NCBI RefSeq assembly: GCF_014698235.1 | Contig: NZ_JACJSP010000006.1 | Span: 62,001 to 126,000 of the forward strand | Direction of reading: 5' to 3' | Source: Limnothrix sp. FACHB-406 | GTDB lineage: Bacteria > Cyanobacteriota > Cyanobacteriia > CACIAM-69d | DNA: 64,000 bases | Shown here: one piece after another, positions 5,251-56,811 of the stretch | Layout of the letters: every line of letters starts with the position of its first letter | Position numbering within the stretch: position 1 is the stretch's first letter | Made by a program: the position numbers and the translations under genes | Notes under the pieces: model-generated | Seen by the model: only the letters and a program-made list of their open reading frames with translations | What the model was told of the DNA's origin: nothing | Database searches by the model: none

Positions 5251-8200
5251 ATGACTAGCCCACTGCAACAAACATCACCCACTTTGTGGCCCAACCTTGA
5301 TGGTTACGAAATTACTGAGCAACTTTACTCAGGATCTCGCACAGCCGTTTACCGGGCAATTCAGACGGATACAGGGCGATCGGTCGTCATCAAAATTCTT
5401 TGCCATGAGTATCCCAGCTTTAACGAGCTGACACAATTTCGCAATCAATATAGCATCGCCAAGTCTTTGAACATTACGGGTATTGTACATCCCTATAGTT
5501 TAGAAGCCTATGGCAACAGTTATGCCCTAGTGATGGAAGATTTCAGTGCTATCTCCCTAGAAAATTACCGAAAACAATATTCAATTTCATTAACTGATTT
5601 TCTGTTTATTGCCTTACAGGTATCCGAAATTCTTCATGACTTACACCAAAGCCGCGTTATTCATCGAGATATCAAGCCCGCCAATATTTTGATTCAACCC
5701 AGCACCAAAGCAATCAAGATTATTGACTTTAGTATTGCTTCCGTGCTGCCCAAGGAAACTCAGGAAATTCAGAACCCTAATCTTCTTGAGGGAACCATTG
5801 CCTATTTAGCCCCTGAACAAACCGGCCGCATGAATCGCGGCATTGATTATCGCACGGACTTTTATGCCCTTGGAGTCACCTTTTATCAATTGTTGAGTGG
5901 TCGGCTCCCCTTTGAAGCAGCGGATCCCCTCAAACTCATTCACTGTCACATTGCCAAAACACCCACAGCGCTTGACCAGGTGAATCCCGCGATTCCTTCC
6001 ATGGTGGCAGCCATTGTCTCTAAATTAATGGCAAAAAATGCAGAACATCGCTATCAAACCGCGAAAGGGTTAAAGCATGACCTGGAGGAATGTTGGACAC
6101 AGTGGGAGGCCACTCAACAAATTCAGCCTTTTGAGTTGGGAACTCGAGATTTAAGCGATCGATTCCTGATTTCTGACAAACTCTATGGGCGCGATCGGGA
6201 AGTTGCTCATTTATTAGCAGCCTTTGAACGCGTTGCCCAAGGAAGTACAGAATTGATGCTGGTGGCGGGATTTTCCGGAATTGGCAAAACCGCCGTCATT
6301 CATGAAATTCACAAGCCTATCACTCGCCAAAAAGGCTATTTCATTAAGGGGAAATTTGATCAATTCAATCGCAATGTTCCTCTCTCGGCTTTTGTGCAAG
6401 CTTTCCGCGATTTAATGAGCTATTTGCTTTCTGAGCCAGATCGTCAATTAAACCAATGGCGAACCAAAATTTTGCAAGCCTTGGGAGAAAGTGGACAAGT
6501 TTTGGTTGAAGTCATTCCCGAGCTGGAGACCATCATTGGGTCTCAGCCAGCCGTGCCCGAACTATCAGGAACAGCCGCCCAAAATCGGTTTAATTTTCTG
6601 TTTCAGAAATTTATTCAGGTTTTCACAAGGCCCGATCATCCCTTGGTCATTTTTTTAGATGACTTACAGTGGGCAGATTTAGCTTCTTTGCAACTTTTGA
6701 AGGTTTTGATGGGGGATAGTGCCCACTTATTCATGTTGGGAGCCTATCGCGATAATGAGGTTTCGCCCATTCACCCCCTCATGGTTACCCTGGAAGAATT
6801 GATCAAAGAAAAAGCGATTGTTAACACCATTACCCTAGATCCACTGAGTCTAGAACATACCAATGATTTAGTGGCTGATACGTTGCGTTGCCCGCCCGAT
6901 CGAGCCTTACCCTTAACTGAATCAATTAATCGGAAAACCCAGGGCAATCCTTTTTTCACAACACAATTTCTAAAGTCGCTCCACGAGGAAGGCTGGATTA
7001 CATTCAACCGAGAAGCCTGCTATTGGGAATGTGATATTTCCAGCATCTACACCCTAACCACCACTGATGATGTGGTGGAGTTTATGGCGGCGCGGCTTCA
7101 AAAGCTGCCTGAATCCACGCGATCAGTCTTAAAGCTAGCGGCTTGTTTGGGTAACCAATTTGACTTAACAACCCTCTCGATTATTGCTCAACAATCTGCC
7201 GCAGAAACAGCCAATACCCTTTGGAAGTCATTGCAAGAGGGCTTGGTTTTACCCAACAGTCAGGTCTATAAATTTTTCCAGCCGGAGGTACTAACCCCAG
7301 CCGATCGGGAGGTGCAGGAACCGCAGGTTAATCCAACCTATCGTTTTTTACACGATCGCGTCCAACAGGCTGCCTATTCCCTGATTGATCCGGCTCAGAA
7401 ACCCATGACCCATCTGATGATTGGTCAACTTTTGCAGACTCAGCTCTCGGGTTCAGAGTTAGAAAATCGACGATTTGATATTATTAATCACCTAAATTTA
7501 GGCCAAGACTTACTCACCACCGATACAGAACGGTTTTCCTTGGCTCAAAGTAATTTGGAAGCTGCCCAAAAAGCCAAAATGGCAACGGCCTATGCGGCTG
7601 CTAGCAACTTTGTTAATACGGGGTTATCGCTCCTATCTAATGATCGTTGGCAGAAACAATACCACCTGAGTTTGGAGCTACATATCTTAGCGGCCGAGGT
7701 GGCATGCCTCATGGGCGACATTGCCGAGATGGACAATCATTGTCAACAGGTTTTAACGGCAGCCCAAAATCCATTAGACAAGGTAGAAATCTACAAAATT
7801 CAAATTAATGCTCTCGCCACTCGCAACCAAATGTTAGAGGCGATCGCAGTCGGGGCCAATGCACTTTCGGAACTGGGTGTGGCCTTGCCCACCCAAGCCG
7901 ACTCAACCATGAGTCATCAAGTGCTTGAAGCATTAGCTCAGCAACTTGAAGATTATGTCATTGAGGATCTGGGGCATCTTGCTCCCATGACCAATCCTCG
8001 GATCATGGCAGCTATGAAGTTAATGGCAGCACTTTTTGCACCGATCTACATGGTGAAGATAGAACTCTTTCCATTGGTTTGTGCGCGGATGGTGAGCTTA
8101 TCTTTAGAATTTGGCAACAGCTCTGTTTCCATGATTGGCTACAGTGGCTATGGCCTAATTTTGACCAATTCTTACAATGAGTTTGAAAAGGGATATCAGT

Positions 8201-10665
8201 TTGGCAAGGTGTCCTTAGAGTTGCTCGATCGCTTCAGTGCTCCTGAATATCGGGCCATGACCCTTTTTCTATTTAGTATTTTTATTCAGCATCGCCATAA
8301 CTCTTTGCGATCAACCATTCCCATGCTCAAGGAAAGCTATCTGTTGGGAATGGAAACCGGCAATTTACTCTACGCAGTCTATAGCATTAATAATTACTTT
8401 TTTAATCAATTTTTCTCTGGCTTTTGTCTAACTGACATAGAACCGGAGATGGAGCAATATTGCATCATTTTGAGCCAAATGAAGCGAGAAAACCCTGTAA
8501 GTTATCTGCGAATGCAGCAGCAGGCTTTTCAAGGCTTTGTGACCAACACTGATTACCCCGATCGACTAATTGGTGAGAGCTATGATGAAACTGTGATGTT
8601 CCCCCAGTATGTCCAAAAAAATGAATCGTCCGGCTTGGCATTTGCTTATATTTATAAATTGATTTTGGCTTATCTTTTTGATCATTATGAGCGGGCTATT
8701 GATTATATCAACGCAGGCTCCCCTTGCATGTATATCATCACGGGACATATTCATATTTCAGTTTTCTATTTCTATGCAGGGTTAACCTACTTTCGGGTTG
8801 CCACTACTCAGTCTAGCTTAGGGCGATCGCGGGCCTTATCTCTCGGAGAACAGCAGCAAGCTACCTTAGCCACTTGGGCCAATCAATCGCCAATTAATCA
8901 TCAACATAAGGTGGATTTGTTAGAAGCAGAAAAGTGCCGCGTGCTGGAAAAGTTTTACGAAGCCGGTATTTTGTACGATCGCGCCATTGATGGAGCCAAG
9001 GCACAGGGATTCTTACAGGAAGAAGCTTTAGCGAATGAACTGGCTGCCAAGTTCTATTTAGATTGGAACAAGGAAAAATTCGCTGCCAGCTATATGCAAG
9101 AAGCCTATTACTGCTATGCCCGATGGGGTGCAAAGGCGAAGGTCAGTGACATCGAACAGCGTTATCCCAAATTGCTGGCTCCTATTCTCGAATCGACTTC
9201 CGAGAAATTAAATCCTCTGGAAACATTTGTTTCTGTTGCGACAGCAACCTATAGCTCCACCGCCACACAAAATTCCAGCAGTAATAATCTCAATGTCATG
9301 CTCGATTTGGCAACTATCATTCGAGCATCTCAAAGCATCGCTAGCACCATTCAACTAGAGGAGCTACTGCAACAATTAACGCAAATTATTTTGCAATATT
9401 CCGGCGGTGACCAATGCATTTTGATGGTTCCTGATCATGATGGTGAATGGTTAGTGCGGGCGATCGCCTCCACGGAAACGACCAAGCTTTGCACCATTCC
9501 TCTTCAGAATGAAAATTCCCTGCCTTTACCCCTAATTCAATGGGTGAAAAATACTAGAGAATCGGTGGTGATCAATGAAGGTCAAACCCATTTGCCGATC
9601 GGGGATGCTTTTCTTGATCGCCCGATGCCCCAAAGCGTGTTGTGCTTACCAATCCTCAACCAAGCGCAATTGGTGGGCATTTTGTATCTCAGTAACCAAG
9701 CTGCGAAAAATGTATTTACGAGCGATCGGCTCTTGGTTCTGAATTTCCTTTGTGCCCAAGCAGCGATTTCACTGGAAAATGCTCGGCTCTATCAGCAAGC
9801 ACGCACCTATGCTCAACAGCTTGAACAATCTCAACTACAAATTGTTCAAAGTGAAAAAATGGCATCTTTGGGAAACTTGGTGGCGGGAGTTGCCCATGAA
9901 ATCAATAACCCGATCGGCTTTTTAAATGGCAGCATTCAAAATTTGCAAGATTCTTTTCAGGATCTCATTGGTCATTTAGAACTCTATCAACAACATTATC
10001 CCAACCCTGAACCCAGCATCACAGAAAATGCAGAAGAGATTGATTTAGACTTTTTGAGTGAAGATTTGCCAACCTTGTTGAAATCGATGCAATTGGCAAC
10101 CGATCGCATCAAAGGTATTAGCAATAGTCTGCGTACTTTTTCACGGGCAGATACTGAATATAAAGTTCAAGCCAATTTACATGAAGGAATCGACAGCACA
10201 TTATTGATTCTGAAATATCGACTAAAAGCCAATGAGCATCGCCCCGCTATTGAAGTCAGTCAAGACTATGGGGACATTCCGGCAATCGATTGCTTTCCGG
10301 GACAGCTTAATCAAGTGTTTATGAATCTTTTGGCCAACGCGATCGACATGTTCGATGAGCTAGCGCAAGGGCAATCATTCGAGGCGTTAGCGGCCCATCC
10401 GCAAACCATTACGATTGGCACTCGACGAGTGGATGATCACGTGCAAGTGACCATTCAAGACAATGGCAAGGGCATGAACGAGGAATTACAAGCCAAGATT
10501 TTTGATCCCACTTTCACTACCAAGTCCGTTGGCAAAGGCACAGGGTTAGGCTTGGCGATCGCTCGCCAAATTGTGGTGGAAAAACATGGCGGTAGCTTAA
10601 TGGTGCGATCGGAGTTGGGCCAGGGGTCTCAGTTTCTGATGAGTTTGCCCATTCACGGATCTTGA
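5251..10665 (+). CDS. Multi-domain Ser/Thr kinase - AAA ATPase - GAF - histidine kinase
   Basis: A 1804-residue signalling protein with the layout known from cyanobacterial multi-sensor multi-kinases such as the Anabaena HstK family. Residues ~18-285 are a PknB-type kinase with catalytic loop HRDIKPANI at 138 and GTIAYLAPEQTGRM as activation segment; the usual DFG reads DFS at 160. Residues ~310-650 are an AAA-type ATPase with Walker A GFSGIGKT at 340 and Walker B VIFLDDLQWAD. A long helical repeat-like middle part (to about residue 1340) follows, then a GAF domain (~1350-1500) and a histidine kinase with phospho-acceptor in GVAHEINNP (His1549), an N box (NLLANAID) and G boxes DNGKGM and GKGTGLGLA. 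No response regulator is adjacent. The GAF lacks a bilin Cys-His motif. It is lower in GC than neighbouring genes. Confidence 0.93.
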   Translation: MTSPLQQTSPTLWPNLDGYEITEQLYSGSRTAVYRAIQTDTGRSVVIKILCHEYPSFNELTQFRNQYSIAKSLNITGIVHPYSLEAYGNSYALVMEDFSAISLENYRKQYSISLTDFLFIALQVSEILHDLHQSRVIHRDIKPANILIQPSTKAIKIIDFSIASVLPKETQEIQNPNLLEGTIAYLAPEQTGRMNRGIDYRTDFYALGVTFYQLLSGRLPFEAADPLKLIHCHIAKTPTALDQVNPAIPSMVAAIVSKLMAKNAEHRYQTAKGLKHDLEECWTQWEATQQIQPFELGTRDLSDRFLISDKLYGRDREVAHLLAAFERVAQGSTELMLVAGFSGIGKTAVIHEIHKPITRQKGYFIKGKFDQFNRNVPLSAFVQAFRDLMSYLLSEPDRQLNQWRTKILQALGESGQVLVEVIPELETIIGSQPAVPELSGTAAQNRFNFLFQKFIQVFTRPDHPLVIFLDDLQWADLASLQLLKVLMGDSAHLFMLGAYRDNEVSPIHPLMVTLEELIKEKAIVNTITLDPLSLEHTNDLVADTLRCPPDRALPLTESINRKTQGNPFFTTQFLKSLHEEGWITFNREACYWECDISSIYTLTTTDDVVEFMAARLQKLPESTRSVLKLAACLGNQFDLTTLSIIAQQSAAETANTLWKSLQEGLVLPNSQVYKFFQPEVLTPADREVQEPQVNPTYRFLHDRVQQAAYSLIDPAQKPMTHLMIGQLLQTQLSGSELENRRFDIINHLNLGQDLLTTDTERFSLAQSNLEAAQKAKMATAYAAASNFVNTGLSLLSNDRWQKQYHLSLELHILAAEVACLMGDIAEMDNHCQQVLTAAQNPLDKVEIYKIQINALATRNQMLEAIAVGANALSELGVALPTQADSTMSHQVLEALAQQLEDYVIEDLGHLAPMTNPRIMAAMKLMAALFAPIYMVKIELFPLVCARMVSLSLEFGNSSVSMIGYSGYGLILTNSYNEFEKGYQFGKVSLELLDRFSAPEYRAMTLFLFSIFIQHRHNSLRSTIPMLKESYLLGMETGNLLYAVYSINNYFFNQFFSGFCLTDIEPEMEQYCIILSQMKRENPVSYLRMQQQAFQGFVTNTDYPDRLIGESYDETVMFPQYVQKNESSGLAFAYIYKLILAYLFDHYERAIDYINAGSPCMYIITGHIHISVFYFYAGLTYFRVATTQSSLGRSRALSLGEQQQATLATWANQSPINHQHKVDLLEAEKCRVLEKFYEAGILYDRAIDGAKAQGFLQEEALANELAAKFYLDWNKEKFAASYMQEAYYCYARWGAKAKVSDIEQRYPKLLAPILESTSEKLNPLETFVSVATATYSSTATQNSSSNNLNVMLDLATIIRASQSIASTIQLEELLQQLTQIILQYSGGDQCILMVPDHDGEWLVRAIASTETTKLCTIPLQNENSLPLPLIQWVKNTRESVVINEGQTHLPIGDAFLDRPMPQSVLCLPILNQAQLVGILYLSNQAAKNVFTSDRLLVLNFLCAQAAISLENARLYQQARTYAQQLEQSQLQIVQSEKMASLGNLVAGVAHEINNPIGFLNGSIQNLQDSFQDLIGHLELYQQHYPNPEPSITENAEEIDLDFLSEDLPTLLKSMQLATDRIKGISNSLRTFSRADTEYKVQANLHEGIDSTLLILKYRLKANEHRPAIEVSQDYGDIPAIDCFPGQLNQVFMNLLANAIDMFDELAQGQSFEALAAHPQTITIGTRRVDDHVQVTIQDNGKGMNEELQAKIFDPTFTTKSVGKGTGLGLAIARQIVVEKHGGSLMVRSELGQGSQFLMSLPIHGS

Positions 10666-12306: not shown

Positions 12307-14553
12307 CTAGCTAGACAACAACAGAGACGGCATCGATCGCCCGCCACCATTGGGCAGCATGGGCGGTATGGGTCGATCGCCCAAATTACCCCGAATCAGA
12401 AATCGATCGGGCAAATCCGCCGCCGATTCTGCCTCCTCCAGCGCAGGCGGCGCAGGGGGCAACTCCACCACAAAGGTCGTGCCCTGATTGGGTTCCGACT
12501 CAAACCAAAGCCGCCCCCCATGCTGCTCCACAATGGTTTGATAGGCGATCGACAGGCCCAACCCCGTCCCTTGCCCGATCGGCTTCGTACTAAAGAAAGG
12601 ATCCAAAATGCGATCGTGCACCGCTTCCGGAATGCCGAGGGCATTGTCTCGAATCCGAATCACCGCCCGCCCGCTGGCCGGATCCAGGGCCGTGACCAGC
12701 CAAATGGTGGGGCGTTCCTCCTTGGCTAACCATGGGGGCGACTCGATCGCCACCGTCAAAGCATCGATCGCATTTTCAATCAGCGCCGCCAACGCCTGAT
12801 TCAGCGGCCCCGGATAGCAAGTGATGGCCGGCAGTGCTCCCCACTCATGAATGAGCTGAATTGAGTGGAGTTGATCACCGCTGCGCAAAGCATTCAGCCG
12901 CCCTTGAAACAACACCAAGGCACTATCCAAACTCTCGTTGAGGTTAATGCTCTTGACAATTGCCTCATCCAACCGCGAGAAAGCCCGCAGCGATCGAACA
13001 ATCTTTTGGATTCGCTCCACGCCCGATCGCATCGATTGCAACATTCGTGGCCAATCCTCAGCAATGTAAGCAGGATCCACCTCTTCCACCAACGCTTCCA
13101 CCTCAGCCGAAGGAGCCATCCCCGATCGCGCCCACTCCGCTTGGTAGACATTCACCAAATTCAACAAATCCTGGATATAGTGCCCCGCGTGGGCCAAATT
13201 GCCCGCAATGAAGGCCACCGGATTGTTCACCTCATGGGCCACCCCCGCCACCAACTGTTCCAGCCCCGCCAACCGTTCCGCCTGCACCAACTGGGCCTGC
13301 TGCCACTTCAGGGCCTGCAACACCGCCTCCAACTGAGCCGCCTTATCCGCGAGCTTGTCCTCCGCTGCCTGTCGCCGCCGAATTTCCGCTTGGGCCTGTT
13401 CGTACAGTTCCGCCTGCAACACGGCCACGGCCAACTGATGGGACAACCGCTCCAACAAATGAATTTCGTTCGGATGCCACTGGCGCGGACTGTGGCAATG
13501 GTGAGCGATTAACAGACCCCAGAGCCGGCCATGGTCAGAGATGGGCAACACCAAATTAGCCCGCACTTGGAACCAACGCAGCAAATTGCGATGGCACTCG
13601 CTCAGGGGAGCCGTTTCAATGTCGCTGATGGCGCTAATGCGTCCCTGTTGGTAATCCTGGGCGCGGCTGATCTGAAAACAGGTGTCCTCGATCGTCACAT
13701 CCAACGACGCATCCCAACCCTCGCCCACGGACTCGGCCACCACCATGCCGCTCCAGTCGGGGTTAAAGCGATAGACCACCACCCGATCGGTCTGCAGCAG
13801 TTGGCGCACCTCATTCACCGCCGTGCTCAACACCGCCGTCAAGTCCAGGTCTTGGCGAATGCGCTGGGTCACACCGCTCAGGAGTTGTTCCTCTTGCAAT
13901 TGCCGATTTTGGCGCTTGCGGGCTTCCACCGCTTCGGTCACATCCGTTTGCACGCCGATGTAGTGGGTCAAATGGCCCGCCGCATCATGCACGGGGCCGA
14001 TCGAAAGGCGATTCCAAAAGGGCCGGCCATCCTTACGGTAATTGAGCAACACCACCTCACAGGCCTCGCCCCGGCGAATGGCCTGGCTGAGTTGCTCCAC
14101 CGCCACCGGATCCGTGTCAGGCCCCTGCATAAACCGACAGTTACGCCCCAACACCTCTTCCCGGCGGTAGCCTGTCATGGTCTCGAAGGCTTCGTTGCAA
14201 TAGATTAGGGGGCGATCAGGCCGGCTCATATCGGCGATCGCAATGCCACAACTGGCCGAAGCCATCGCCCGTTCATACAACTCCAGGGTCACCGGCAATA
14301 ACCCTGGACTCGCTTGATTTTCCATAAGCCTCCAAGCTTCAGGATCTGACTCGTCCTCTGATTGGTTTGTGGTTTGCCATCCGGCCAAACATTCAGAACC
14401 ATTCAACAGCGCCGTTGAATCTTCAGACACCCTCTCGGATGACTGGGCATTCATGGTGTTTTCCGCCGCACCCTGCAACGACAAACAGCGTTCAAGGTCG
14501 ATCCCTGGTGATCCCGAATCCTTCATTGTTCCGGGCCAGTCCACGGTGATCAA
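12307..14553 (-). CDS. LOV + DXCF cyanobacteriochrome GAF sensor histidine kinase
   Basis: A 748-residue predicted dual photoreceptor. Residues ~90-205 form a PAS domain with every hallmark of a LOV domain: GRNCRFMQG with flavin-adduct Cys139, NYRKDGRPFWN and YIGVQTDVT. Residues ~225-385 form a GAF domain of cyanobacteriochrome type: Cys320-His321 in SECHRNLL followed by FQVRANLVLPI is the canonical bilin attachment site, and DTCF at 290-293 is the second-Cys DXCF motif, 28 residues before Cys320. A coiled linker leads to a histidine kinase with acceptor His440 in GVAHEVNNP, ENAIDAL as N box, and DNALGI and GQGTGLGLS as G boxes. About 85 residues before the LOV domain are disordered-looking, so the start is uncertain. 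No response regulator is adjacent. The kinase core closely resembles that of the multi-kinase at 5251. Confidence 0.92.
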   Translation of the reverse strand: MITVDWPGTMKDSGSPGIDLERCLSLQGAAENTMNAQSSERVSEDSTALLNGSECLAGWQTTNQSEDESDPEAWRLMENQASPGLLPVTLELYERAMASASCGIAIADMSRPDRPLIYCNEAFETMTGYRREEVLGRNCRFMQGPDTDPVAVEQLSQAIRRGEACEVVLLNYRKDGRPFWNRLSIGPVHDAAGHLTHYIGVQTDVTEAVEARKRQNRQLQEEQLLSGVTQRIRQDLDLTAVLSTAVNEVRQLLQTDRVVVYRFNPDWSGMVVAESVGEGWDASLDVTIEDTCFQISRAQDYQQGRISAISDIETAPLSECHRNLLRWFQVRANLVLPISDHGRLWGLLIAHHCHSPRQWHPNEIHLLERLSHQLAVAVLQAELYEQAQAEIRRRQAAEDKLADKAAQLEAVLQALKWQQAQLVQAERLAGLEQLVAGVAHEVNNPVAFIAGNLAHAGHYIQDLLNLVNVYQAEWARSGMAPSAEVEALVEEVDPAYIAEDWPRMLQSMRSGVERIQKIVRSLRAFSRLDEAIVKSINLNESLDSALVLFQGRLNALRSGDQLHSIQLIHEWGALPAITCYPGPLNQALAALIENAIDALTVAIESPPWLAKEERPTIWLVTALDPASGRAVIRIRDNALGIPEAVHDRILDPFFSTKPIGQGTGLGLSIAYQTIVEQHGGRLWFESEPNQGTTFVVELPPAPPALEEAESAADLPDRFLIRGNLGDRPIPPMLPNGGGRSMPSLLLSS

Positions 14554-14875: not shown

Positions 14876-16663
14876 ATGCCTAACCTGTTTTGGCCTCGGA
14901 AATGGACAAGGGCGATCGCTCCGGCTCGATCGCCCCAGTTGCGTCAGTCGTTGGGGGCGATCGGGCTGGTGGCCAGCTTGCTGGTGGGGGGCTGTGGCGG
15001 CGGCACATCCACCAACTCCGCCAACCGTCCCAGCGCCAGCGGCCCGGCGGATAAAACCCTGAAGTTGCTCTATTGGCAAGCCCCCACCATTTTGAATCCC
15101 CACCTGGCCACAGGAAATAAGGATTTTGACGGGGCGCGCGTGGTCTATGAACCCCTCGCCAGCTACGACAAAACGGGCAAATTGGTTTTGTTTTTGGCGG
15201 CAGAAGAACCCACCCCGGCCAACGGTGGCGTGGCCAAGGACGGGCGATCGGTCACTTGGAAGCTGAAATCCGGCGTGAAGTGGGCCGATGGCAAACCCTT
15301 CACCGCTGAGGATGTGGTCTTTACCTATGAGTTTTTGAGCGATCCTAAAACCGGCGCGGCCACCCTCACGGACTACGCCATGGTGAAATCGGTGCGGGCG
15401 ATCGATCCGCAAACGGTGCGGATTGAATTCACAGCGCCCACGGCCAGTTGGTCTCAGCCCTTCACTGGCTACAACGGCATGATTTTGCCCAAACACATTT
15501 TTCAGGACTATGTGGGAGCCAGGGCCAAGGAAGCACCGGCCAACCTGAAGCCGATCGGGACGGGCCCCTATCAAGTGGAGTCCTTTAAGCCGGGTGATTC
15601 GATCGTCTACAAACCAAACCCCAACTATCGCGATCGGGCCAGCCTCGCCTTCGAGCAGGTGGAAATTAAAGGCGGCGGCGATGCCACCTCGGCCGCCCGG
15701 GCCGTGCTGCAAACCGGCGATGCCGACTATGCCTACAATCCGCAGGTGGAAGCGCCGATTTTGAGACAACTGGAAAGCGGCGGCAAGGGCAAACTGCTGG
15801 CCGTGACCGGGGCCCAATCGGAGCGGATTCACTTTAACTTCACTGACCCCAACCGGGCCACTGCCGACGGGGAGCGATCAAGCGTGCAGTTTCCCCACCC
15901 CTTCTTCACGGATAAAACCGTGCGCCAGGCCTTTGCCCTCGCGGTCGATCGCGCCACCATCGCCCAGCAGCTCTATGGCCCCACCGGCAATCCCACAGCC
16001 AATCTGATCATCGCTCCCCAGCAGTTTGCCTCACCCAACAACCAAGTGGAATTCAACCTGCAAAAAGCAGCCCAACTGTTGGATCAAGCGGGTTGGAAAG
16101 ACACCAACGGCAACCAAATTCGCGACAAAAACGGCGTGGAAATGCGGGTGCTGTTTGTCACTTCGGTGAATCCCCTGCGCCAGAAAACCCAGGAGATTGT
16201 GAAGCAAGCTTGGGAGTCGATCGGGATTGGCGTGGAACTGAAGTCCGTGGATGCCGGAGCCTTCTTCTCCGGCGACCCGGCCAACGCCGACACCGTAAAC
16301 CGCTTCCAAGCCGATTTGCAGCTCTACACCACCGGCAACACCTCCCCAGATCCCAGCGCACACCTGAAATGGTGGACTTGCGCCGAAATTGCCAGCAAAG
16401 CCAACGACTGGAACCGGAATAACTACACCCGCTATTGCAACTCAGCCTATGACCAAGCTTGGGCCAAAGCCGACCAGGAATTGGATCCGATCAAACGGCA
16501 GGCGGCCCTGATTGCCCTCAATGACCAACTGATTCAGGATGTGGCCCTGATTCCCCTCATTGCCCGGGCCAAAGTGGGAGCCGTCAGCGATCGATTGCAG
16601 GGCGTGGATCTCACCCCTTGGGACAGTGACACCTGGAACATCGCCACCTGGAAGCGTCCCTAA
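14876..16663 (+). CDS. ABC transporter peptide-type substrate-binding lipoprotein (SBP family 5)
   Basis: A 595-residue extracytoplasmic solute-binding protein of the DppA/OppA type. The N-terminus has basic residues, a hydrophobic stretch and the lipobox LVGGC (Cys at ~41), so it should be a lipoprotein anchored on the periplasmic side. Family features include ILNPHLATGNKDF, the SVTWKLKSGVKWADGKPFTA block with downstream EDVVFTYEF, GTGPYQVESFKPGD and VRQAFALAVDRATIAQQLYG. The usual cargo of the family is oligopeptides or nickel; the cargo here cannot be read from the sequence. No permease or ATPase gene is adjacent, so the transporter partners are encoded elsewhere. The SRP RNA gene follows 83 bases downstream on the same strand. 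Confidence 0.92.
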   Translation: MPNLFWPRKWTRAIAPARSPQLRQSLGAIGLVASLLVGGCGGGTSTNSANRPSASGPADKTLKLLYWQAPTILNPHLATGNKDFDGARVVYEPLASYDKTGKLVLFLAAEEPTPANGGVAKDGRSVTWKLKSGVKWADGKPFTAEDVVFTYEFLSDPKTGAATLTDYAMVKSVRAIDPQTVRIEFTAPTASWSQPFTGYNGMILPKHIFQDYVGARAKEAPANLKPIGTGPYQVESFKPGDSIVYKPNPNYRDRASLAFEQVEIKGGGDATSAARAVLQTGDADYAYNPQVEAPILRQLESGGKGKLLAVTGAQSERIHFNFTDPNRATADGERSSVQFPHPFFTDKTVRQAFALAVDRATIAQQLYGPTGNPTANLIIAPQQFASPNNQVEFNLQKAAQLLDQAGWKDTNGNQIRDKNGVEMRVLFVTSVNPLRQKTQEIVKQAWESIGIGVELKSVDAGAFFSGDPANADTVNRFQADLQLYTTGNTSPDPSAHLKWWTCAEIASKANDWNRNNYTRYCNSAYDQAWAKADQELDPIKRQAALIALNDQLIQDVALIPLIARAKVGAVSDRLQGVDLTPWDSDTWNIATWKRP

Positions 16664-16746: not shown

Positions 16747-16842
16747 GACCTGGACCCGCGCAATCCCAACGCCCGAACCGTGTCAGAGCCGGAAGGCAGC
16801 AGCACTAAGGGATGCTTGAGATAGGCGCGGTCTCCGGGTCTC
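16747..16842 (+). ncRNA. ffs: Signal recognition particle RNA (4.5S type)
   Basis: A hairpin RNA of about 96 nucleotides. The 5' arm GACCTGGACCCGCGC pairs with the 3' arm GCGCGGTCTCCGGGTC. The apical domain reads GTCAGAGCCGGAAGGCAGCA, close to the bacterial SRP domain IV with its GGAA tetraloop and AGCAGC strand. A T-rich run directly after the stem (16841-16849) acts as the terminator. The tetraloop-closing pair and one base of the symmetric loop differ from the usual bacterial sequence. The RNA binds Ffh and helps target membrane proteins. Confidence 0.93.
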
Positions 16843-16847
16843 TTTTT

Positions 16848-16942: not shown

Positions 16943-17038
16943 TCGATCGCGGGATGGATCGCCGAATATATCTCGGGATAGATCTCGGGACGCATTGCGG
17001 GATAAGTCGCGGGACACATCACGGGACACATCGCGGGA
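16943..17038. repeat. Eight-unit 12-bp tandem repeat
   Basis: Eight 12-mers in strict register, most ending CGGGA (for example CACATCGCGGGA). The first five bases of each unit vary while the last five are conserved. Confidence 0.85.
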
Positions 17039-17277
17039 TACATAAATCAACGGGCGAATTTCCTGAGTTGTTGATGAATCCAACAACCACAGACCTGAAT
17101 TGCATAGGATTGAAGTATTCAGCCTGTTGAACTGAAATCGAGACAGTCCTAGCGAAGGCTGAGGTACTGGTTTTGGCAGCCGATCGATCGGGAACGTCTC
17201 AGCGGCAGCCCAGTTCAATCACCAGGGTCAGGGCGCGGGGATTCGCGATCGCACAGCCACTAGGAGCGTAATTAACA

Positions 17278-23694: not shown

Positions 23695-24092
23695 GGCGGC
23701 CTGGGTGCGTTGGGGCTGAGGTCTGGGCGCTTGAGCCTCGCAAGTCAGTGGAGCGTCATTTTGAGGGCCATGGAGTTGAAAATCAGGGGCTTGGCCGATT
23801 CCATTGCAACAATTGCCAGCGCTCCAAGCATTTGCATACTTATTTGAATTTTTCATGGAGATTGTTATCCCATTTCCCATTAATGTTTGCGTTTAATGAT
23901 CAAGCATTACAAAAAGACAAGAACTCTCTTCAAGATCTCCAAAGAAACTTGTCTTCTTCTCAAGAATTTCCCTCAACTGGTTCCGATTGACCAACTGAAA
24001 TCTGATTCCGCTTTCATAATAGAAATGAATCCCCCCACGAGGCATTTGTTGTGGCTGCGTCTTCCCAAAAGGCTGAAGGTCAATCCCCCCTG

Positions 24093-25358
24093 ATGGCAAC
24101 CCCAATCAGCGCGATCGACCCATCAGAAGTCGAAATCGGGCCCGGCGACGATCGGGTAGCCGTTTTGCTGATGGGCTATGGCGAAGTGGAGTCCTATGCG
24201 GATTTTGCCAATTACAACGAACAGGCTTTGAACCTGTTGACTGCCAAGTTTGCACCGGTTCCCCAGTGGGTTTATCCACCCCTGGCGAAATTATTGGCGG
24301 CCTTTGATTTGCATGAGTGGAGTCACCAACATGGTCAATTTATTTCTCCCCACAATGCAATTTTTGAGCGCCAACGATCAGGAATTGAGCAAGCACTCCA
24401 ACAACGTTGGGGCGATCGAGTCTCGGTGTTTAAGGCGTTTAACTTTTGTCGTCCCCATTTGCCCGAGCAAGTTTTGGCAGAAATTCGCGATCGGGGATTT
24501 AGCAAGTTACTGATTTATCCCTTGCTGGTAGTGGACTCTATTTTCACCAGTGGGATTGCCATTGAGCAGGTGAACCGGGCCTTGAGTCAGTTAACCGATG
24601 GCGACACCCATTGGGTGCGATCGATGCGCTATCTCCCGTCGTTTTATGACCAGGCTAGCTATATTCAACTGCTGGCAAAGTTGGTGAGCGAAAAAATTGA
24701 TCGGGACTGGCGATCGCACTTTTTGCCATCGCAAATTGGGATTGTGCTGCTGAATCATGGTTGTCCCCATGAAGCCAAGGGATTTGTGTCAGGAATTTCC
24801 GAAAGCCAAGCCCTGTATGAATCGGTGCGTCGGGAGCTGATCACTCGCTACCCCCTGATTTCGATCGGCTGGCTCAATCACGATACGCCCATGATCGATT
24901 GGACACAGCCCAATGCTCAATTGGCTGCTCGCAATTTAATTGAACTGGGAGCCAAGGCAATTTTGATGGCCCCGATCGGGTTTGCCACCGAAAACCATGA
25001 AACATTGCTGGATGTGGACCATATTTTCCTAGCGCTCCAGCGTCAATATCCTGAGGTGGTTTATCAACAATTACCCTGCGTGAATGATCACCCTGAGTTT
25101 TTGACCATGGCAGCGGATTGGGTTGATCCTCTAATTACGGAGTTATTGGCAGAAACCAGCGCTGTGATTCATTTCGCTGGGTTCGATCGCTCCAGCCTCG
25201 ATTCCGAGCATCATCACCACCAAAGCCATAGCCATGATCACAGTTATGATCACGGTCATAATCATGGGGACAATCACAGTCATGATCATGGTGGCAACCA
25301 CAGCCATCATCATGGCCATTCCCATGATCACGCTCATCATCAACATTCCCATCATTAA
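24093..25358 (+). CDS. Ferrochelatase/class II chelatase-like protein with His-rich tail
   Basis: A ~421-residue protein with two chelatase-type domains. The first begins VAVLLMGYGEVESYADF, resembling the LLxNxG start of HemH. The second contains LLNHGCPHEAKGF and IGFATENHETLLDVDHIFLA, equivalent to the ferrochelatase active-site block FVSDHIETLEELDHEY with its metal-coordinating His and Glu. The last ~50 residues are dominated by His, with Asp, Ser, Gly and Asn, a metal-binding or metal-storage tail like those of CbiX, HypB and UreE. It lacks the chlorophyll a/b-binding segment of cyanobacterial HemH, so it is probably a paralogue handling Fe, Co or Ni rather than the housekeeping enzyme. 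A GTG at 24051 would add 14 residues. Its stop overlaps the stop of the next gene. Confidence 0.8.
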   Translation: MATPISAIDPSEVEIGPGDDRVAVLLMGYGEVESYADFANYNEQALNLLTAKFAPVPQWVYPPLAKLLAAFDLHEWSHQHGQFISPHNAIFERQRSGIEQALQQRWGDRVSVFKAFNFCRPHLPEQVLAEIRDRGFSKLLIYPLLVVDSIFTSGIAIEQVNRALSQLTDGDTHWVRSMRYLPSFYDQASYIQLLAKLVSEKIDRDWRSHFLPSQIGIVLLNHGCPHEAKGFVSGISESQALYESVRRELITRYPLISIGWLNHDTPMIDWTQPNAQLAARNLIELGAKAILMAPIGFATENHETLLDVDHIFLALQRQYPEVVYQQLPCVNDHPEFLTMAADWVDPLITELLAETSAVIHFAGFDRSSLDSEHHHHQSHSHDHSYDHGHNHGDNHSHDHGGNHSHHHGHSHDHAHHQHSHH

Positions 25359-33991: not shown

Positions 33992-34885
33992 TAGTCATTT
34001 CAAATAAGAACGAGACAGTCTACCCGCTTGGGGCTGGTACGATGCCACCAGCTCATCCAGGGATGTCTCGTCTGACTCATAGGCTCGCTTCTTCTTGAGG
34101 GCCGCAAAATCCCCTTCAATCGGATTGAAGTCCGGAGAATAAGGCGGCAGAAACAACACTCGATGACCGGCCTGCTCCATTAACTCCGTTACCCTGTGGG
34201 GTCGATGAAACGCCGCATTGTCCAGGACTAAAACCGAGGGTTGAAGCAGCGACGGAATTAACTGTTCGCTTAACCACTGCTCAAACAATTGCGCTGTCAC
34301 TGAACCTGGAAACAACAACGGCGCTAACCACTCTTGGCGAGTTCGAGCGGCCAGCAGGTTTTCTCTTGGACGACGCTCGCCACTCCGCTCTCCATAGACG
34401 GGCACCCCTCGGGGTGACCAGCCGTACAAACAAGGGGCATCTGGCTCAAATCCGCTTTCGTCGCAGTAGACAATCGACCAGCCGGCCTGTTTTAGCGCCC
34501 GCAACTGACGGAGGTAGAGCTGGCGTTGGTGCGGGCAGCGTTGTCGATAGCGAAGCTGTTTTTTTTACAAGTCACCTTCAGTTGCTTGAGTCGATAGCTG
34601 ATCGCGCTGGGACAAACCCCAAATTCAGCAGCTCGGTCTCGCAGGCGGGCATCAGGGTAACGTCGCACATGGTCGAGGAGCTTTTTGGGATCGAGTTTTC
34701 GAGTCCGAATCTTGGGTAGGGGCTTGGGGGTTGGATTCTCTAACCAGCGGTACAGAGTGGCTCGACTCACCTGGAAGGTGCGACTAGCGGTTGTGGGAGG
34801 CATTCCCTGCGCAACCGCAGCCAAGACTCGTTGTCTGAGGTCTTTGCTGTAGGTCATGCTGTCTCATTCCTAATTGAACATACTA
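33992..34885 (-). mobile_element. Complete IS630-family insertion sequence
   Basis: An 894-bp element with imperfect terminal inverted repeats of about 27 bp: TAGTCATTTCAAATAAGAAC at the left and the complement of ...CATACTA at the right; both sides end in GAGACAG internally. Each end abuts a TA (33990-33991 and 34886-34887), the expected target duplication of IS630/Tc1-mariner elements. It encodes one transposase in two overlapping frames. Its right end lies only about 12 bases from the T run of a terminator hairpin. Confidence 0.92.
33995..34857 (-). CDS. IS630-family transposase, two frames joined by -1 frameshift
   Basis: Frame A (34857 down to 34492) encodes the helix-turn-helix part: MTYSKDLRQRVLAAVAQGMP, ASRTFQVSRATLYRWLENP, with a second HTH. 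Frame B (ending at 33995) encodes the DDE catalytic core: VYCDESGFEPDAPCLYGW, SVLVLDNAAFHRPHRV and FLPPYSPDFNPIEGDFAALK with the three acidic residues. They overlap, and a run of eight A on the coding strand (34566-34559) sits at the join. A -1 slip there reads KKKQLRYRQRCPHQRQLYLR and runs straight into frame B, giving a full-length protein. Programmed frameshifting is known in several IS630 members, so I regard the transposase as intact rather than broken. Confidence 0.88.
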
Positions 34886-56491: not shown

Positions 56492-56649
56492 CTTTTGATT
56501 TCACAGCGTTTGTTCAAGAAGATCACCCACTTAAATTCGAGTGAAATTTTCTGAACTAACACTGCTGTTGCTTTTGATTTCACAGCGTTTGTTCAAGAAG
56601 ATCACCCACTTAAATTCGAGTGAAATTTTCTGAACTAACACTGCTGTTG
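56492..56649. repeat. 79-bp perfect tandem duplication
   Basis: The 79 bases 56492-56570 (starting CTTTTGATTTCACAGCG) are repeated exactly at 56571-56649. No base differs, so the event is recent. Each copy carries a GTG that opens the same first 13 codons; in copy 1 the frame then runs into copy 2 and ends, in copy 2 it continues into unique sequence. Confidence 0.92.
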
Positions 56650-56811
56650 CTACTGATCATGATTAACCATGCCCAAGCTCAAGATCTGAATCCTCTGAAT
56701 CATTCTTCAATTAGCCCCCAAAGAATTAGCCCTCAAAGCCTTCCTCAGAAATTCTCAAAAGATTTTCCCAGCACCAAACATCATCCTGATCAAGTCCTTC
56801 CGCAGGATTGA
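56620..56811 (+). CDS. Possible small secreted protein, 5' end duplicated
   Basis: A GTG at 56620 opens 63 codons: MKFSELTLLLLLIMINHAQA, then QDLNPLNHSSISPQRISPQS and a Gln/Pro/Ser/Lys tail. The first 21 residues look like a signal peptide with an AQA-Q cleavage site. I do not recognise the mature part. The start lies in the second copy of the 79-bp duplication; the same GTG in copy 1 (56541) gives a 30-codon frame. No clear Shine-Dalgarno. It may be a real peptide gene or coincidence. Confidence 0.3.
   Translation: MKFSELTLLLLLIMINHAQAQDLNPLNHSSISPQRISPQSLPQKFSKDFPSTKHHPDQVLPQD

Follow-up and report, generated by a model that had tools for sequence, protein, structure and literature searches.

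The question that this locus raises is whether a single histidine kinase could receive light signals through two chromophores of different chemistry. The window (the whole 64,000-nucleotide stretch of Limnothrix sp. FACHB-406 DNA that was analysed) contains a minus-strand open reading frame of 748 codons (14553..12307) in which a LOV domain, a cyanobacteriochrome (CBCR) GAF domain, HisKA and HATPase_c follow one another in that order. A start at TTG 14553 is unlikely because the sister genome G042, which is 98% identical over the LOV–GAF region, is set apart from the window by a single-base indel that falls before residue 34, so that the two frames differ there. The first start codon common to both is ATG 14454, and comparison of the two sequences indicates that this is probably the true start, with ATG 14325 also possible. 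The protein would have 715 residues from ATG 14454 or 672 from ATG 14325, with all domains intact either way. Residue numbers used here count TTG 14553 as residue 1, and the features are as follows.

12307..14454, minus strand: probable coding sequence (ATG 14454 to stop) of a LOV – CBCR GAF – HisKA – HATPase_c histidine kinase, 715 residues (Pfam; comparison with G042).
13930..14283, minus strand: LOV domain, residues 91–208 (Pfam PAS_9; PDB relatives; Foldseek).
14122..14148, minus strand: GRNCRFMQG motif, with the codon of the photoactive Cys139 at 14137–14139 (sequence).
13846..13929, minus strand: LOV-to-GAF signalling helix, residues 209–236 (equal length in all orthologues; modelled helix).
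13420..13845, minus strand: CBCR GAF domain, residues 237–378 (Pfam GAF; PPHK and TePixJ best by sequence; Foldseek).
13675..13686, minus strand: DTCF motif with the second (DXCF) cysteine, Cys292, codon 13678–13680 (TePixJ alignment).
13591..13596, minus strand: canonical bilin-binding Cys320–His321 (TePixJ alignment).
13261..13419, minus strand: GAF-to-DHp helical linker, residues 379–431 (spacing; full-length model).
13063..13260 (domain end approximate), minus strand: HisKA/DHp domain with phospho-acceptor His440 in AHEVNNPV, codon 13234–13236 (Pfam).
12451..12807, minus strand: HATPase_c kinase domain with G1 box DNALG and G2 box GTGLGL (Pfam).

An earlier note on this DNA had read an intact LOV signature around Cys139, and this reading is confirmed; its residue numbers are correct when TTG 14553 is counted as residue 1, and it named no strand. 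The PAS_9 profile matches residues 104–207 with 87 bits, above its curated cut-off, and Asn171, Asn181 and Gln202 lie 32, 42 and 63 residues after Cys139, the spacing of the flavin-contact residues of AsLOV2. The closest solved relatives of this part of the protein in the PDB are all LOV domains, and the modelled domain superposes on Meiothermus MrLOV (PDB entry 9vf7) with TMt values of 0.91–0.94 (Foldseek).

The second sensor matches the Pfam GAF profile over residues 237–378 with 90 bits, likewise above the curated cut-off. Its alignment with TePixJ (phmmer, 2e-36) is free of gaps over both bilin sites, pairing IEDTCF with IEDPCF and ECHRN with ECHLN, and Cys292 and Cys320 fall on the two bilin cysteines of TePixJ, 28 residues apart. 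Since both cysteines align without gaps, the 28-residue spacing that the note gave for TePixJ is right, and the assignment of Cys292 of the DTCF motif and of Cys320–His321 as CBCR residues is upheld. In a tree of 142 GAF domains the orthologues of this protein form one clade (99/95), which lies outside the red/green XRG clade (100/99); the position of TePixJ in this tree is not firm. It is the alignment that supports the label 'DXCF-type'; the tree gives no clean placement. Enzymes for making phycocyanobilin (PCB) are encoded in the host genome, namely PcyA (320 bits against an equivalog cut-off of 206) and two heme oxygenases, and the genome is rich in other CBCR-like GAF domains (16 matches at E ≤ 1e-15).

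It is conceivable that the GAF domain binds bilin as a CBCR but without the second linkage through Cys292, or without PVB, in which case it would have a green/red, orange or teal cycle and the kinase would have two true colour channels. PPHK, which contains the closest solved GAF domain, carries DQYF instead of DXCF and with PCB has a green-absorbing Pg state at 562 nm (PMC11480761), and even DXCF members can keep PCB and give orange products, as does NpF4973 (435/600 nm; PMC4469895). Against the absence of a second linkage, Cys292 coincides exactly with the second cysteine of TePixJ and is invariant in the orthologues of the order. We therefore regard this alternative as unlikely and prefer a GAF domain that uses both cysteines, with PVB formation and the exact colours less certain because PPHK has no second cysteine and the tree position of TePixJ is not firm.

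The remainder of the protein has the features of a histidine kinase. HisKA is matched with 33.7 bits against a cut-off of 26.9 and HATPase_c (residues 583–701) with 82 bits, again above the curated value, so that PAS_9, GAF, HisKA and HATPase_c all exceed their cut-offs. The phospho-acceptor histidine and the N, G1, F and G2 boxes are present; the G1 box reads DNALG in the genus of the window and DNGLG in G133. A model of the LOV–GAF region (md805e56f6e1e; pLDDT 87.0) joins the two sensors by a single helix, 121–149 of the model, and matches LOV, TePixJ and PPHK structures (Foldseek). The full-length model predicts a continuous helix (328–444) running from GAF into DHp with low-to-moderate confidence; its pLDDT of 62.8 was considered too weak and it was dropped as a source of geometry.

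Orthologues were found in all six of the genomes of the host's order that were examined, which represent three genera. Each of the six keeps the LOV cysteine, the DTC cysteine and the canonical cysteine, with the DXCF cysteine 153 residues after the LOV cysteine in every case, while the canonical Cys–His has become Cys–Tyr in one genus. The canonical GAF cysteine and the phospho-acceptor histidine are separated by 120 residues in three genomes and by 127, one heptad more, in G133. We note that the G387 orthologue (L278, 8307–11291) is a LOV–GAF–GAF–kinase protein in which both tandem CBCR GAF domains have the DTC and canonical cysteines 28 residues apart; its second GAF has 150 residues between cysteine and phospho-acceptor histidine, which by hand count is about 127 once a 23-residue loop insertion is subtracted. 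Measured against G386, dN/dS is low in every domain (LOV 0.08, GAF 0.14, kinase 0.19); synonymous sites are close to saturation in this comparison. Judged from the sequences, the fixed spacing and the heptad-step linker are consistent with a coiled-coil spine that runs without a break. The earlier note's proposal that both sensors converge on one kinase is supported by this anatomy of invariant spacing, linkers that change by a heptad and a predicted continuous helix; the coincidence detection or colour-ratio sensing that it envisaged would be a possible consequence.

Two further alternatives bear on these results. Non-photoactive PAS–GAF pairs are frequent in cyanobacterial kinases, and most of the PAS–GAF matches in the census described below have no LOV cysteine or bilin cysteines, so it is conceivable in principle that the motifs arose by chance in ordinary PAS and GAF domains that do not sense light. 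We consider this very improbable. Chance does not explain the LOV and GAF features, which are kept in six of six genomes of the order; the completeness of the motif sets, their spacing and the bilin pathway speak against it too. On the strength of the conserved orthologues, the low dN/dS and the complete motifs we rejected chance or degenerate domains. PAS and GAF domains often serve as spacers, and this lends some plausibility to the idea that one sensor alone controls the kinase while the other serves dimerisation or folding as a structural or redox module. Such a division of roles seems to us rather improbable, as what is kept over 59–98% identity is not the fold only but the chromophore-binding residues of both domains. 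The reading that we retain is that both domains would be working photosensors.

To place the pairing in a wider context, we surveyed 386 genomes of the cyanobacterial phylum, frame-scanning most of the loci with LOV matches. A strong LOV match occurs in 81 of the 386, and at least nine combine a LOV domain with its cysteine and a two-cysteine CBCR GAF domain on one chain (G000, G042, G133, G170 with two such proteins, G060, G195, G344, G191 and G070); this count is a lower bound, with about two dozen weaker LOV matches left out of the frame scan. The pairing is also present in five genomes beyond the sample, namely G386, G387, G388, Trichocoleus FACHB-40 (L109) and Coleofasciculus LEGE 07092 (L054). 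The proteins of G170, G060, G195, G344, G191, G070, Trichocoleus FACHB-40 and Coleofasciculus LEGE 07092 resemble the one described here in having the LOV cysteine and the two-cysteine CBCR GAF in one frame; most of them differ in having about 140–260 extra residues between LOV and GAF, and one has the GAF before the LOV domain. The GAF domains of the LOV and two-cysteine CBCR proteins occupy about five separate places in the GAF tree, which suggests that the pairing was assembled repeatedly in cyanobacteria. Of the description of the pairing as unusual, the rarity therefore holds, whereas the idea of a one-off does not, since it recurs in several cyanobacterial families; singularity to this protein was ruled out by the same counts. 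The architecture is conserved and recurrent but uncommon, its components known and their combination rare.

No single-cysteine red/green CBCR fused to a LOV domain was seen among the frame-scanned census loci. In nine genomes whose CBCRs were scored against this GAF and against AnPixJ, the red/green type made up, as judged by eye, about 30 of about 170; since it is a minority anyway, we claim no preference of LOV for two-cysteine over red/green CBCRs. A further set of proteins (L017, L018, L019 and the like) has a LOV or LOV-like PAS domain followed by CBCR-like GAF domains in which PCLV[ED]F replaces Cys–His; these GAF domains have no DXCF cysteine and form a separate group in the GAF tree. 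We found no description of LOV and CBCR proteins in the open-access papers that were searched, subscription papers being outside the search.

The kinase gene stands alone, between an aminopeptidase P gene that converges on it and a divergently oriented gene for an SBP_bac_5 solute-binding protein (14876–16663, plus strand). The divergent kinase/SBP_bac_5 pair is found also in G042, G386 and G133, and no response regulator gene adjoining the kinase was seen in the window or in G042. Elsewhere in the window there are an 1804-residue protein combining a Ser/Thr protein kinase, an AAA ATPase, a GAF domain and a histidine kinase (5251–10665, plus strand), a bacterial small SRP RNA (16747–16843, plus strand; Rfam RF00169) followed by a 12-base tandem array (16946–17043), a Ferrochelatase/CbiX-like protein whose C-terminal tail is long and His-rich (24051–25358, plus strand), a DDE_3 transposase domain in a 169-residue frame (33995–34504, minus strand) and a perfect tandem repeat of two 79-base copies (56492–56651).

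Our preferred interpretation, to which we assign a probability of about 0.7, is that the sequence describes a soluble dimeric orphan dual-chromophore kinase that integrates a blue-light signal from LOV with that of a reversible CBCR of the blue/green type. The LOV domain would bind FMN, form an adduct with Cys139 in blue light and revert thermally. The GAF domain would bind PCB through Cys320, perhaps isomerised to PVB, and reversible attachment of Cys292 at bilin C10 would give a blue- or violet-absorbing dark state and a photoreversible product absorbing at longer wavelength. LOV domains absorb at about 450 nm, and the dark state of DXCF proteins is typically blue-absorbing, as in TePixJ (430/530 nm) and NpF4973 (435/600 nm) (PMC4469895, PMC11284453). 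As both dark states should thus lie in the blue/violet, the two sensors would not simply be two different colour channels; a net response to blue light is likely, and the second colour would enter through photoreversal of the CBCR, resetting that arm while LOV gauges light intensity or works as a timer. Both signals would travel along a single coiled-coil spine to the DHp helices, where together, whether by AND, OR or additive logic, they would set the autokinase/phosphatase balance toward an unlinked response regulator. A broader proposal, which we hold to be evenly balanced, is that these proteins constitute a natural, vertically inherited and undescribed family of LOV–CBCR kinases with FMN and bilin inputs on one spine, in which the second colour erases the CBCR arm, the LOV arm decays thermally and several assemblies have occurred.

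If this interpretation is correct, the protein is a compact example from nature of two sensors with different photochemistry acting on one kinase. Each component is familiar, so what surprises is that they are paired, and repeatedly so, rather than any new mechanism. Orthologues of fixed spacing, together with a natural one-heptad change in the linker, are material for testing signal integration, and the protein could offer optogenetics a ready-made kinase with two inputs.

Comparison with known systems indicates what is shared and what differs. The LOV histidine kinases (Brucella LOV-HK, Meiothermus ruber Mrub_1259 and the engineered YF1) likewise have the LOV cysteine, the flavin-contact residues and helices leading to HisKA/HATPase_c, whereas we know of no bilin-binding GAF domain between LOV and kinase in any of them. 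The GAF domain of TePixJ (PDB entries 3vv4 and 4glq) shares both bilin cysteines and their spacing, with TMt values of 0.80–0.90, but does not group firmly with this GAF clade in the tree; TePixJ is a chemoreceptor-type protein with neither LOV nor kinase. PPHK from Leptolyngbya sp. JSC-1 (PDB entries 6oap, 6oaq and 6ob8) is the best match of this GAF both by sequence (183 bits) and by fold, and is likewise a soluble dual-sensor histidine kinase with a CBCR GAF placed after another sensor and a long signalling helix. Its first sensor is a REC domain, responsive to phosphorylation (a BeF3-bound form is among the entries), and not LOV, and its DQYF sequence has no second cysteine where this GAF has DTCF with Cys292. 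Neochrome of plants and algae, which combines a phytochrome with LOV domains and a Ser/Thr kinase, also has two photosensory modules with different chromophores on one chain, but no CBCR. Ppr carries two chromophore types in the same manner, uniting PYP, a bacteriophytochrome and a histidine kinase (PMC5812497), with PYP in place of LOV and no CBCR, and in the engineered kinase YHF a LOV and a haem-PAS domain are integrated cooperatively (PMC6798134). By analogy, PPHK, Ppr and YHF provide natural and engineered precedents for two-input kinases.
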